A DNA stretch of 64,000 bases from Desulfovibrio sp. JY (GTDB lineage: Bacteria > Desulfobacterota > Desulfovibrionia > Desulfovibrionales > Desulfovibrionaceae): contig CP082962.1 of the NCBI GenBank assembly GCA_021730285.1, positions 434,001 through 498,000 of the forward strand. The letters run 5' to 3'. This document shows positions 45,681 to 50,804 of this stretch, piece after piece (within the stretch, counting starts at the first letter, position 1; each line of letters starts with the position of its first letter). The notes beneath the pieces were generated by a model. The model was not told where the DNA came from and did not search any database. It worked only from the letters and a program-made list of their open reading frames with translations. The translations under genes and the position numbers were made by a program.

Positions 45681-45944
45681 TCAGTGATCGTGGGTGTGGG
45701 GCACGTGCTCGTGGTCCGGGTGGACATGGTCGTGAGGGCCGTGCTCGCCGGTATGCTGGTGTTCGTGCGCGCCTTCCCCCGCGCCGTGCTCGTGGGGATG
45801 CTTGTGCTCGTGTTCATGTTCATGGGTATGGACATGGACATGCTTGTGGGTGTGCTTGCCGATGCCGGGATGCTCGTGTTCGTGCTCGTGTTCGTGGGTA
45901 TGCTCGTGGCTATGGTCATGGTGGTGTTCGTGGTCGCCTTGCAT
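45681..45944 (-). CDS. extremely His-rich metal-binding protein, 87 aa
   Basis: About 36 of 87 residues are histidine, mostly alternating with Glu, Asp, Lys or Val (EHEHEHEHPGIGKHTHKHVH). GGAGG is 8 bases before ATG 45944. No signal peptide, so it is cytoplasmic. Such sequences bind Ni, Zn, Co or Cu and serve in metal storage or as chaperones, like SlyD tails, HypB or NikR-linked stretches. It lies between ubiX and the nrdD riboswitch on the same strand. Metal is unknown; the B12 context makes cobalt worth testing, which is inference. Confidence 0.82.
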   Translation of the reverse strand: MQGDHEHHHDHSHEHTHEHEHEHEHPGIGKHTHKHVHVHTHEHEHEHKHPHEHGAGEGAHEHQHTGEHGPHDHVHPDHEHVPHTHDH

Positions 45945-46178
45945 GATGGCTGCCTCCTTTTTCTTTTTGTTATTCCATGAACCATTTCGCCGTCCCCGCC
46001 AAGACGGCATGTTTTTTCCCTTCCTCGCACAAGGCGTTCCCGTTCTCCGGGGCCGACATTCTCCCCGGATACAAAAACCGGATGCGTACGCTTTTCAATG
46101 CGGCGCAATTTCCAGGGAAGCAACGGACCGCGACCTTTCCGCCCCCGCGTATGCACCGTCCCGCCGACGCGGGCCGGA

Positions 46179-47013: not shown

Positions 47014-47889
47014 ATGAAAAACCGCAATGTTTATTTCGCGCTGGTGCTGGCAACCCTCCTGCTCGCCTTCGGCGTCTGGATCCTGGCCTTTTTCCGGTCC
47101 ACCCTCGTGACCAAGCGGACCGAGACGCCCCAGGCGGCTCCCAGCCAGAACGCCAAGGCGCCGGCCATGCCGCAGCTCTTCAATCCGCCGCGCCCCGAGG
47201 ACGCCCCGGAAAGCATCCGCGCCGAAGTCATGCTCGGCTACAAGATCATGACCGAAACGAAGAAGTACGCCGGCAAATACATCAACAACGACCTGTCCTG
47301 CACCAGCTGCCACTTCGACGGCGGCCGCAGCCTCGACACCATTTCCCTGGTCGGGGTCGGGGCGCGCTACCCGCTCTTCCGCGGTCGCCGCGACTACACC
47401 GCCGACCTGACGCTGCGCACCCAGGGCTGCTTCGAACGCAGCATGAACGGCACCGCCCCGGCCTACGACAGCCAGATCATGCAGTCCCTGCTCGTCTATA
47501 TGCAGTGGATATCCAAGGGCATCCCCATCTATTCCGAGCAGCCCTGGACCCTGCCCCACGACCTGGGCAATTCCCATAAGCCCGATGTGGCCAACGGCGC
47601 CAAGGTCTACGCGGACGTTTGCGCCAGATGCCACGGCGAGGCCGGCCAGGGCACCGCCATCGCCCCGCCGCTCTGGGGCGACGGCTCCTATAACGACGGG
47701 GCCGGCATGCACCGCATCCGCACCTTTTCCGTGTTCGCCTGGCGCTACATGCCCAAGAGCTCCCCGTCCCTGACCCAGGAACAGGCCCTGGATGTGGCCG
47801 GTTTCGTGCATGAAAAGCCGCGCCCGAAATTCGTGGCCACCCACCCCGGCAAGGTCGAGCAGGTCATCCCCCTGTCCGAGGTGCAGTAA
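47014..47889 (+). CDS. membrane-anchored TsdA-like diheme cytochrome c
   Basis: The 291-aa protein has an N-terminal anchor (YFALVLATLLLAFGVWILAF), then two c-type haem sites, CTSCH (about residue 94) and CARCH (about 206). The text LSCTSCHFDGGRS followed by RTQGCFERSMNGTAP matches thiosulfate dehydrogenase/tetrathionate reductase TsdA, in which a Cys in this second segment is an axial haem ligand. Family knowledge therefore points to thiosulfate/tetrathionate conversion or a related redox step. It heads a three-gene cluster with spacing of 3 bases to the next gene. Substrate is not proven; a plain electron carrier is possible. Confidence 0.85.
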   Translation: MKNRNVYFALVLATLLLAFGVWILAFFRSTLVTKRTETPQAAPSQNAKAPAMPQLFNPPRPEDAPESIRAEVMLGYKIMTETKKYAGKYINNDLSCTSCHFDGGRSLDTISLVGVGARYPLFRGRRDYTADLTLRTQGCFERSMNGTAPAYDSQIMQSLLVYMQWISKGIPIYSEQPWTLPHDLGNSHKPDVANGAKVYADVCARCHGEAGQGTAIAPPLWGDGSYNDGAGMHRIRTFSVFAWRYMPKSSPSLTQEQALDVAGFVHEKPRPKFVATHPGKVEQVIPLSEVQ

Positions 47890-47892
47890 GCC

Positions 47893-49245
47893 ATGATCTT
47901 CCCCATCCTGCATATTCCGGGTCTCGGCGACGGCATGACCATCGCCCTCGATGCCGTGCTGCACGTGCTCATCAGCCACGGCCTGGCCATCGGCCTCGTC
48001 ACCATGCTGGTGCTGTTCCAGACGCTGACGTACCTGGGCAAGGGGACGTTCTGGGCGCGGATCAGCCGCACGCTCCTCGGACCGGCCGTGGTCGTCACCA
48101 CCTCGGTCGGCGCGGTCACGGGCGTCGGCATCTGGTTCATCACCGGGGCGCTGGCCCCGGAGGGCATCGGATCGCTCATCCACCTCTTTTTCTGGCCCTG
48201 GTTCATCGAATGGGGCGCTTTCACCTCGGAAGTGGTGCTCCTTTTGATCTACTACTACCTGTGGGACCGGCTGGCCGAAAAACGGCCGGGAACGCTGGTG
48301 GCCCTCGGCTGGGGCTACGTCGGCATGGCGGTCATTTCCGCCATCCTTATTTCGGGCATCCTGGGGTTCATGCTCACCCCGGACGGCTGGCCCTCGGCCG
48401 GCGGCTTCGTGCGGGCCTATTTCAACCCGACCTTCATTCCCCAATGCTTCCTACGCGTGGCGGGCGGGCTGGCCCTTGGCGCGCTCTTCGTCGTCACCTG
48501 GACGGCCTGGCGCTTCAAGGGCTCGCGGGAGGAGCGCGGCCGGGCGTTGCGCCTTGGCGGCCTGGTGTTTCTCGGCGCGGCCCTGGTCGCCACGGCCAGC
48601 GGGTTCGTCTACTTCTCCCGGGTGCCCATGACCTACCTCACCCACTGGAAATTCGCCGTGGCCACCTCGGCCCTGTCCCAGCGCCCCGACTTCCTGCCCC
48701 TGGCCAACGGCCTGGCCGGACTGCTCGTGCTGGCGACGGCCCTGGCGGCGCTTTTGCGACGGCCGCTCCTTTGCCGGGCGCTTTGCATCCCGACCATCAT
48801 TTTGTGCGTGGGGCTGGTGACGGAATTCGAGCGCGTGCGCGAGTTCGTGCGCGGCCCGTACCTGCTGCCGGGCTACATGTACGCCAACCAGATACCGCTG
48901 GTGGAAAACAAGGGGCTCGCCGCGAAAAACGCGGCCATCCTGCCCACCATGCGCTGGGTCAACGACAACGGGAGCCAATCCGCCGCCATGCGCGACGGAG
49001 CGACCCTTTTCGCGGCCAACTGCGGCGTGTGCCATACCGACGGCGGCATCAACGACATCCGCAAGCGCATCGCCGGCCGCACTCAGGACGGCGTCAACGC
49101 CATCACCGCCATCACCGAGGGGCTGGCCCCGTTCATGACGCCCTTTACCGGCACCGAACAGGAACGCCTGCTTCTGGCCAATTACCTCTTTACGTTGGCC
49201 AACCAGGATTCACGCCTGCGCGGGCCGGAGCCCAAGGAGAAGTAG
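47893..49245 (+). CDS. CydA-like membrane protein fused to cytochrome c
   Basis: The 450-aa protein has about nine hydrophobic segments resembling cytochrome bd subunit I: GAVTGVGIWFITG, a segment ending LLIYYYLWDRL, and LTHWKFAVATSAL, with REFVRGPYLLPGYMYANQI where CydA has its conserved QPW-type end. A C-terminal domain has one CxxCH haem site, CGVCHTDG (about residue 377). This is the layout of CydA-like proteins with a cytochrome c tail, distinct from canonical bd oxidases, which lack c haem. It may carry electrons between the menaquinol pool and periplasmic cytochromes. No CydB gene is present; the next gene may replace it. Whether O2 or another acceptor is reduced is unknown. Confidence 0.78.
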   Translation: MIFPILHIPGLGDGMTIALDAVLHVLISHGLAIGLVTMLVLFQTLTYLGKGTFWARISRTLLGPAVVVTTSVGAVTGVGIWFITGALAPEGIGSLIHLFFWPWFIEWGAFTSEVVLLLIYYYLWDRLAEKRPGTLVALGWGYVGMAVISAILISGILGFMLTPDGWPSAGGFVRAYFNPTFIPQCFLRVAGGLALGALFVVTWTAWRFKGSREERGRALRLGGLVFLGAALVATASGFVYFSRVPMTYLTHWKFAVATSALSQRPDFLPLANGLAGLLVLATALAALLRRPLLCRALCIPTIILCVGLVTEFERVREFVRGPYLLPGYMYANQIPLVENKGLAAKNAAILPTMRWVNDNGSQSAAMRDGATLFAANCGVCHTDGGINDIRKRIAGRTQDGVNAITAITEGLAPFMTPFTGTEQERLLLANYLFTLANQDSRLRGPEPKEK

Positions 49246-49247
49246 CC

Positions 49248-50804
49248 ATGTCCCAGTGGACCGATCTGTTCCTCTCACTGCCGCTGCCGGCAAGCTGGCT
49301 GCATGGGCTGCTTTTCGTCTCCTTCGGCCTGCATCTGCTGTTCGTGCTGCTCATGCTCGGCACGGCGCTGCTCGGCTTGCTCTTTTTCATCCAGAAAAAA
49401 ATTCACGGCGAAAGCGGACCACAGCTTTGGAACAAGCGCATGGTGCACACGCACCTGGGGCTCAAAAGCCTGGCCGTGGTGCTTGGCGTGGCCCCGCTGC
49501 TCATCATCCAGGTGCGCTATTCCCAGGCCTTTTTCACCACCACGGGCCTTTTTTCCTATGCCTGGCTGGCCGTGATTCCGCTTTTGATCGTGGCCTTTCT
49601 GCTCATCGACGCCTTTGGCCACAAGATAAGCGACAGTCCGTGGCTGGCCTTTGTCTGCGGCGTGCTCGGCGTGGGCGCGCTTTTAACCGTTCCGGCGATT
49701 TTCACCGGGGCCCTGTCGCTCATGGAACGCCAGGACTTCTGGGCCCGGTTCGCGGCCCGGGGATTTGCCCTGGACGGGGTGTTCGCGCCGCACTGGCTGC
49801 TGCGCTACCTGCATATCATCGGCGCGGCCCTGGTCTTCGGCGCGGCCTTCCACCTCTTCTTTTCGGCCAGGGAACATCCCGAAAAGGCCGCGAAGCTTCG
49901 CTCCTGGCTTTTCGGCGCGACCCTGGCCCAGGTCGTCATCGGCATCCCGCTGGTCTTTTCCGTGGCCTCGGGCCTCGACTGGCCCGTGCTCGGCGCGGTG
50001 ACCGTGGGCGTGGCCGCCGCCATGCTGGTGCTTTTGGCCCTGCGGCCCGCCGCCGCGCCCCTTGCCGCCGGCCCGGGCAGCCTGCTCGTCCTGCTGCCCA
50101 TCATCTTCGTTTCCATGCTCCTCGCCCGGCAGTTTCTCCAGGACCGCGTCCTGGCCCCGGCCCATGCCCAGGCCGTGGCCGTGCGCGAGGCGCGCTCGAA
50201 AGCCTACGCCCCCTTCCGCAAGGAAGCCCTGGCCGCCTTTACCGCCAAGCTGAACACCGTCTACGACAACGGCGAGACCATCTACACCGGAGCCTGCCAG
50301 CCCTGCCACGGCAAGGCCGGCCATGGGGACGGCCCGACCGCCGCCCGACTGGTGGTGCCGGCCGAGGATCTTGCCGCCATCCGGGCGAACAGGGACTACA
50401 TCTACGGTATCCTGACGGCCGGCACCCCGGGCTCGGGCATGCCGTATTTCCGGCTCTTCGACCGGGAAAAACTGGAAAAGCTGCTGGATACGCTTTCCAC
50501 GCGGTTTTCCATGTTCGATGCCACGCCCAAGCCGGCGCACCATCCGGTCGGCTCCGAGGCCATGCAGGTCTGGAACAAGACCTGTTCCGTGTGCCACGGC
50601 GCGGACGGCGGCATCACGCCCTTCGGCCGCACCCTGCTCCCGGCCCCGCCGGACCTGCGCCGCTATGCCCTGACGCCCGAACGCGCCCTGGCCGTCATCA
50701 CCGACGGCTACCCCGGAACGGTCATGCAGCCCTACCGCGCCCTGCCCGCAGCCACGCTCCAAGACCTCGCCACCATCAGCAACACCTTCCGCACGGCCCG
50801 TTGA
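49248..50804 (+). CDS. polytopic membrane protein with two C-terminal c-type haem sites
   Basis: The 518-aa protein has about eight hydrophobic segments (to about residue 300), including ones with conserved histidines (RMVHTHLGLKS, LRYLHIIGAALVFGAAFHLFF), then a periplasmic region with CQPCHGKAGHGDGP (about 351) and CSVCHGADGG (about 445). It starts 2 bases after the upstream stop. The membrane part resembles other cytochrome b-like quinol subunits but not canonical CydB. With the two preceding genes it forms a five c-haem, multi-b-haem complex. I do not recognise a named complex with this composition. Confidence 0.8.
   Translation: MSQWTDLFLSLPLPASWLHGLLFVSFGLHLLFVLLMLGTALLGLLFFIQKKIHGESGPQLWNKRMVHTHLGLKSLAVVLGVAPLLIIQVRYSQAFFTTTGLFSYAWLAVIPLLIVAFLLIDAFGHKISDSPWLAFVCGVLGVGALLTVPAIFTGALSLMERQDFWARFAARGFALDGVFAPHWLLRYLHIIGAALVFGAAFHLFFSAREHPEKAAKLRSWLFGATLAQVVIGIPLVFSVASGLDWPVLGAVTVGVAAAMLVLLALRPAAAPLAAGPGSLLVLLPIIFVSMLLARQFLQDRVLAPAHAQAVAVREARSKAYAPFRKEALAAFTAKLNTVYDNGETIYTGACQPCHGKAGHGDGPTAARLVVPAEDLAAIRANRDYIYGILTAGTPGSGMPYFRLFDREKLEKLLDTLSTRFSMFDATPKPAHHPVGSEAMQVWNKTCSVCHGADGGITPFGRTLLPAPPDLRRYALTPERALAVITDGYPGTVMQPYRALPAATLQDLATISNTFRTAR

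Follow-up and report, generated by a model that had tools for sequence, protein, structure and literature searches.

A conserved TsdA, CydA-like and A' gene trio in Desulfovibrio sp. JY: a candidate thiosulfate:dioxygen oxidoreductase of the bd superfamily

We analysed a stretch of 64,000 nucleotides (the window, C1:434001-498000) of the genome of Desulfovibrio sp. JY, which consists of one 4.69 Mb contig. The window contains a trio of abutting genes on the + strand with spacers of 3 and 2 bases, which carry five CxxCH sites (two, one and two in subunits 1, 2 and 3). Both neighbouring genes are on the other strand; one is of the Flavoprotein family (UbiX-like) and one encodes an ADP-ribosylglycohydrolase. 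The features of the trio are listed below in window coordinates, with lengths in amino acids (aa) and the basis of each assignment in brackets. Papers are cited by PMC number, each for the part of its text that was available.

47014..47889, + strand: subunit 1, membrane-anchored TsdA-like dihaem cytochrome c, 291 aa (phmmer and Pfam)
47035..47091, + strand: predicted N-terminal membrane anchor, subunit 1 aa 8-26 (hydropathy peak 2.59)
47299..47313, + strand: haem 1 site CTSCH, aa 96-100, active-site haem (sequence, alignment to TsdA haem 1)
47428..47430, + strand: Cys139, equivalent to Cys96 (mature) or Cys123 (precursor) of Allochromatium vinosum TsdA, catalytic haem-1 ligand (alignment; function from PMC4423706)
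47620..47634, + strand: haem 2 site CARCH, aa 203-207, with Met246, equivalent to Met209, as distal ligand (sequence, alignment)
47893..49245, + strand: subunit 2, CydA-like core lacking a quinol site, with a C-terminal c-haem domain, 450 aa (Pfam, AlphaFold2 (AF2) and Foldseek, residue mapping)
49021..49035, + strand: c-haem site CGVCH, subunit 2 aa 377-381, distal Met415 (conservation)
49248..50804, + strand: subunit 3, CydA-type paralogue (A') with a C-terminal dihaem domain, 518 aa (profile comparison, AF2, Foldseek)
50295..50309, + strand: c-haem site CQPCH, subunit 3 aa 350-354 (sequence)
50583..50597, + strand: c-haem site CSVCH, subunit 3 aa 446-450 (sequence)

The distribution of the trio was surveyed at the level of class, phylum and species. 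Subunit 3 has matches at E <= 0.001 in 176 of 348 genomes of the class; among the matches listed, 27 are full-length and 2 more are cut by contig ends at similar identity (29 together), and the others match the membrane part. In the phylum (395 genomes), 136 match subunit 3 and 13 have the full form. Of the 37 loci from a species scan, which takes one genome per species and may omit the window's own, 24 are trio-type (7 of these identical to loci already counted) and 13 are distant. Most of these loci come from metagenome-assembled genomes (MAGs), whose taxonomic labels are taken as deposited; the record titles include Desulfogranum japonicum (DSM 18378), Bilophila, Desulfovibrio, Nitrospirae and Bacteroidetes, and also Desulfarculaceae, Desulfobacteraceae, Bdellovibrionales and Phycisphaerales. 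The window, the class loci, the species scan and five more loci give 51 trio-type loci (referred to by L numbers), no two of which are identical in subunit 2.

A TsdA-like gene, whole or in truncated or disrupted form, lies directly upstream of subunits 2 and 3 in 48 of the 51 loci (L080 and L119 are cut by a contig end, L203 is broken). The remaining three are L112, which has a gutted remnant, L118, which has no TsdA within 6 kb, and L131, which starts inside subunit 2 and is not judgeable. Gene order and strand are identical in all 28 fetched class loci besides the window, as far as contig ends allow. Because this order is conserved across loci, the three genes are a conserved unit, and we rejected the reading of the trio as chance neighbours. 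Between the three subunits, pairwise distances correlate (0.87, 0.90 and 0.96 in 41 loci), a result that shared species history alone could also yield. No TsdA match was found in the 13 distant loci, in some of which the upstream sequence is short. A TsdA search of 148 genomes gave 7 with matches at E < 1e-40, 5 of which carry the trio; in the host genome, no protein other than subunit 1 matches the trio-TsdA profile at E <= 0.001. A search of plasmids gave 4 records with a best identity of 37.5%, one of which (29%) spans 99% of subunit 2. The remnant in L112 (L112:5653-5988; Nitrospirae MAG) is a TsdA reduced to the anchor and a C-terminal stub in one open frame, with both haem domains gone; subunits 2 and 3 of this locus are open, and an assembly error is conceivable for the remnant.

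Subunit 1 matches A. vinosum TsdA (4v2k_A) with E 3.2e-34 (phmmer) and shows the Pfam domains SoxA-TsdA_cyt-c (E 9e-11) and Cytochrome_CBB3. Its anchor region (aa 8-29) has a mean conservation of 0.55 in 41 complete loci, against 0.31 for the linker behind it and 0.70-0.72 for the haem domains; since the anchor region is more conserved than the linker, the pattern would fit an anchored protein rather than a cleaved signal. The Cys123-ligated haem of TsdA is surrounded by Arg109, Arg119, Ser127 and Arg224, of which Ser127 is TsdA-specific (PMC4423706; A. vinosum precursor numbering). These positions were read in 47 trio sequences with a profile score >150, leaving out L112 (remnant), L118 (none) and the fragments of L119 and L131; in L080 and L203, both among the 47, the active-site region is truncated or disrupted, so that 45 are judgeable there. 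The catalytic Cys (Cys139 in the window) and the haem-1 His are kept in 45/45, and the haem-2 His and Met in 47/47. The Arg119 position is R in 38 and K in 7, the Ser127 position S in 38 and N in 7 (the window has R and S), and Arg109 is kept in 37 and replaced by S, N or G in 8; the Arg224 position is variable (R 23, K 15, other 9; n=47). One trio TsdA (L111:868-2226; 452 aa, 3 CxxCH) carries an additional C-terminal one-haem extension.

Subunit 2 contains the Pfam domains Cyt_bd_oxida_I (aa 17-237, E 1.4e-14) and Cytochrome_CBB3. Its AF2 model (predicted local distance difference test, pLDDT, 78.8; 36-row alignment) has 9 matches in the PDB at E <= 0.001 by Foldseek, the top ones being CydA/AppC of bd oxidases (7oy2_C, E 2.4e-7; 5doq_A, E 9.7e-7). 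Residues were compared in an alignment of 51 trio-type, 13 distant, 32 multihaem-group and 22 canonical CydA sequences. The multihaem group is named after its majority (8 CxxCH in 27/32, 7 in 3/32 and one in 2/32; two rows are identical). In Escherichia coli CydA, H19, E445, H186 and M393 are haem ligands. The equivalents of E. coli H19, E99, E107, E445 and R448 are H24, E106, E113, E317 and R320 of subunit 2 (profile and multiple alignments); they are present in 50/50 trio rows reaching each site, and every trio, distant, multihaem-group and canonical row that has a residue at these positions has the same one (21 of the 22 canonical rows reach H19). By these five residues subunit 2 has the predicted O2-reducing core of the bd superfamily. 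The ligand of haem b558, H186, is His in 22/22 canonical rows; elsewhere the residue is L, F, S or Y (His in 0/50 trio, 0/13 distant, 0/32 multihaem-group; Leu187 in the window). The Q-loop region has <=43 residues in trio, distant and multihaem rows vs 93-158 in canonical CydA. Subunit 2 thus has neither of the two marks of canonical CydA (qOR), the b558 His186 and the Q-loop with its quinol site. The c-haem residues C377, C380, H381 and M415 are kept in 50/50 trio rows reaching there, 13/13 distant and 32/32 multihaem-group rows; canonical rows lack the CxxCH. In a quick maximum-likelihood tree of subunit 2 (115 rows), the trio, the multihaem group and the canonical sequences each lie on one side of a branch (approximate likelihood ratio test, SH-aLRT, 99, 100 and 100), and the distant group has no support (SH-aLRT 15); the program warned of long branches in this tree, among them L118 and L119.

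In subunit 3, Pfam shows two Cytochrome_CBB3 stretches and no membrane-protein family. Profile comparison gave probabilities of 59% for CydA, 0.4% for CydB and 98.9% for subunit 2, the last including the cytochrome tail; on these values an identity as CydB was ruled out. The AF2 model (pLDDT 89.3; 31 rows) gave weak Foldseek matches to the PDB, none at E <= 0.001, the first 15 being chains A, B or D of bd oxidases. Five residues are invariant in the A' rows of the trio, distant and multihaem groups, counted where a row covers the site: H29 (= H19; 94/94), R186 (95/95), H189 (= H186; 95/95), M290 (92/92) and R294 (92/92). We read H189 and M290 as likely ligands of a low-spin b haem. The longest gap between predicted helices is 31 residues.

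A first-pass annotation, made from the DNA without database searches, had described the three genes with their short spacers and five CxxCH sites, a TsdA-like first subunit and a CydA relative with a c-haem tail; all of these stand, and the survey of conservation that it had asked for found the trio co-conserved. Its third subunit, a polytopic dihaem protein in the place of CydB, was right in the former respect and wrong in the latter, the protein being of the CydA type. The proposed link to menaquinol finds no support, the trio subunit-2 sequences that could be read having neither the b558 His nor the Q-loop; its other suggestion, an alternative oxidase, is supported.

From the gene structure, co-conservation, homologies and residue conservation observed, we infer an activity and its direction, the formation of a complex, haem positions, an electron path and a physiological role. 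On balance we consider it probable, by a narrow measure, that the trio forms one membrane complex with two activities, the oxidation of thiosulfate to tetrathionate on the periplasmic side and the reduction of O2 within the membrane. Electrons from two thiosulfates would be taken up at the Cys/His haem of subunit 1 and leave via haem 2 (His/Met) for the c haems of the membrane subunits (3 and 2); from there they would pass to the low-spin b haem of subunit 3 (probable ligands His189 and Met290) and on to a two-haem site in subunit 2 (His24 and Glu317, with Glu106 and Glu113), where O2 would be reduced. Such a complex would belong to the bd superfamily, be wired through cytochromes c and have an inorganic donor of its own; it would probably serve microaerobic energy gain or O2 removal. 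We favour this reading because the gene order is fixed over many lineages, the catalytic Cys, Arg119 and Ser127 of TsdA are largely kept, and subunit 2 retains the O2-site residues, lacks the b558 His and the Q-loop and has a fold that matches bd oxidases. The thiosulfate/tetrathionate couple lies at +198 mV (PMC9562282), and O2 reduction with thiosulfate is therefore strongly downhill; electron transfer from menaquinol to tetrathionate is downhill too, so that energetics do not decide the direction. The broader proposition has, in our estimate, an even chance: a hard-wired thiosulfate:dioxygen oxidoreductase, that is, a bd-superfamily O2 reductase in which a dedicated subunit for an inorganic sulfur donor takes the place of quinol. 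It would occur across sulfate reducers and Nitrospirota-labelled bacteria and be a molecular candidate for the O2-dependent thiosulfate oxidation of the sulfate reducers.

The genes next to the trio were compared in 65 loci (7 of them duplicates), and no neighbour family was common to more than 11; the ORF (open reading frame) picker of this survey drops genes hidden by long shadow frames (the subunits themselves were picked in 58, 51 and 38 loci), so that weak sharing may escape. A SoxB-like gene lies directly downstream of subunit 3 in L106, L107, L113 and L116 (in L113 and L116 only up to the contig end). L131 has a 49-residue match 2.2 kb off, L087 and L101 (one genome) have weaker nucleotidase-like matches, and the host genome has only a 163-bit match to SoxB, below the cut-off, as in control genomes. 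A DsrE-like gene is found beside the trio in L108, L200, L202 and L204. The TsdA-less distant pair has RegB/RegA-like genes next to it in L125 and L127, and a RegA-like gene in L133 (best family by far, below the cut-off). A fusion of a dihaem peroxidase with TsdA (four haems; CCP_MauG E 2e-52 to 1.5e-49) adjoins the trio in four loci:

L200:6804-8711: peroxidase (MauG/CCP)-TsdA fusion
L202:8239-10170: peroxidase (MauG/CCP)-TsdA fusion
L204:3629-5536: peroxidase (MauG/CCP)-TsdA fusion
L117:4566-6524: peroxidase (MauG/CCP)-TsdA fusion

In these fusions TsdA is coupled to another oxidant-reducing enzyme; they may be thiosulfate-dependent peroxidases. The SoxB-like, peroxidase-TsdA and DsrE-like neighbours are in keeping with thiosulfate oxidation and with a connection to oxidants, and they, with the RegBA-like genes of the distant pair, are a further reason for the reading as thiosulfate:O2 oxidoreductase. 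A ModA/CysP-like solute-binding protein is encoded near the trio in two lineages (L106:2051-2893, L107, L131, L200, L202 and L204). The window's own upstream neighbour (Pfam Flavoprotein; UbiX-like as judged by eye) had no match in 70 loci searched. Between 46850 and 51020 no promoter-like site was found, and terminator-like sites number 8 vs 4.0 expected. At 45681-46010 (- strand) a 109-aa ORF with 36 histidines in H-E, H-D and H-T runs adjoins anaerobic ribonucleotide reductase genes; it is possibly a metal-binding protein.

Several points weigh against O2-linked thiosulfate oxidation. Lys208 of the oxidising A. vinosum TsdA is absent in 47/47 trio sequences (F 33, N 12, Y 2), and the tetrathionate-reducing TsdA of Campylobacter jejuni also lacks this haem-2 Lys (Asn254; PMC5146829). 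A clade of seven loci (L077, L081, L082, L084, L085, L087 and L092; one Desulfovibrionaceae-level clade in the subunit-2 tree) keeps subunits 2 and 3 and the catalytic Cys with an altered TsdA pocket (R109->S/N, R119->K, S127->N), which might mean a new substrate. The SoxB-like protein of L106 scores 352 bits with the SoxB model, below the cut-off of 550 (its next family reaches 162 bits, and ordinary nucleotidases about 160 with the SoxB model); its Pfam domains are those of nucleotidases only, and no signal peptide was seen on the SoxB-like protein. The evidence from sulfur-gene neighbours comes largely from MAGs, and at the window's own trio no sulfur-oxidation, peroxidase or Reg-like neighbours were found. 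The host belongs to a group known for anaerobes, and its genome already encodes two full-length canonical CydA (its two other CydA-family, PF01654, matches are subunit 2 and one in an 882-aa frame).

The best surviving alternative, which we regard as unlikely, is a menaquinol:tetrathionate reductase, in which the membrane pair would oxidise menaquinol at subunit 3 and the c haems would feed a tetrathionate-reducing TsdA. The anaerobic life of sulfate reducers would suit it, as would TsdA being bidirectional and serving as tetrathionate reductase in C. jejuni (PMC5146829), with which the trio shares a His/Met haem 2 without Lys; the b558-type His is, moreover, retained in subunit 3. Against it, subunit 2 has no Q-loop and subunit 3 no long loop between its predicted helices; the invariance of the O2-site residues would have no reason, and the SoxB-like and peroxidase-TsdA neighbours suit oxidation. 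We therefore favour the thiosulfate:O2 oxidoreductase over this reductase. Rather improbable, and slightly more so, is a general cytochrome-c:O2 reductase, in which subunits 2 and 3 would be fed by the periplasmic cytochrome pool and TsdA would be an optional or regulatory entry, maybe inactive in some lineages. Related pairs without TsdA are indeed widespread (the 13 distant loci), a subunit-2-like match of some kind occurs in 41 of 59 relatives (mostly the multihaem form), L118 lacks TsdA, L112 has a remnant without haem domains and the pocket is altered in seven loci; against it, TsdA lies upstream in 48/51 loci, with its Cys kept in 45/45 judgeable sequences and its substrate residues in 38/45. 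That the bd-like core reduces nitric oxide (NO), peroxide or another oxidant instead of O2 is very improbable: canonical bd enzymes do react with NO and peroxide and peroxidase-TsdA fusions adjoin the trio in four loci, but the core keeps the canonical set of O2-site residues and the distant relatives have RegBA-like redox regulators beside them.

Should the reading as thiosulfate:O2 oxidoreductase be true, the bd superfamily would gain a non-quinol, sulfur-fed member, and genes could be tied to a process in sulfate reducers, the oxidation of inorganic sulfur compounds with O2, which Dannenberg et al. are said to have reported in 1992. The enzymes would be testable in genera with cultured strains, e.g. 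Desulfogranum japonicum DSM 18378 and Desulfovibrio. If the direction is reversed, the trio would represent a new type of tetrathionate respiration in anaerobes.

Concerning known systems, one bd family without a quinol site, OR-C, carries a c haem. The families of this kind (OR-C, OR-N and CydAA') were reportedly set out by Murali, Gennis and Hemp in 2021. The bd superfamily has been split into qOR, OR-C and OR-N (PMC13189123), and OR-N is held to have cytochrome c as electron donor and to form CydAA' (PMC10839748, PMC12342949). These families and the trio, as far as the available text describes the former, share a retained CydA-type O2 site, the loss of the quinol site and two CydA-type paralogues together; the trio differs from them, as described, in its TsdA subunit and its dihaem A' subunit. 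The pair of subunits 2 and 3 fits this kind of bd enzyme (OR-C/OR-N), likened by description and not by an OR-C profile. The first-pass annotation had known of no characterised complex of this composition: the part concerning TsdA holds, as no description of the trio, or of a quinol-site-less bd family with TsdA, was found in the searchable literature (outside of which most subscription papers lie), whereas families without a quinol site have already been named in the three papers cited. The available part of PMC9239080 mentions TsdA and bd-type genes apart from each other.

A pair of A'-like and CydA-like genes is widespread in relatives of the host (L093:2816-6514, in the own genome at C1 about 2.07 Mb; L007-L034), with a tail of 7-8 haems in 30/32, the same O2-site residues and no quinol site. 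The Desulfovibrionales multihaem pair (own genome C1:2069871; L093-L096) and the trio are alike in the core residues, the A' partner and the c-haem tail; unlike the trio, the multihaem pair has no TsdA, falls in a separate clade and, in the loci looked at, has the A' gene first and without c haem. Subunit 1 shares with the TsdA of A. vinosum and C. jejuni the two c-haem domains, the catalytic Cys, Arg119 and Ser127, and differs from both in its conserved N-terminal membrane anchor and its fixed order with the bd-like pair, and from that of A. vinosum also in the absence of the haem-2 Lys. In Erythrobacter flavus 21-3, TsdA makes tetrathionate and SoxB acts on it (PMC7608252). The SoxB-like gene that follows the trio in four loci resembles this arrangement; the trio differs from the Erythrobacter system, as described in the available part of that paper, in having a dedicated O2-reductase subunit.

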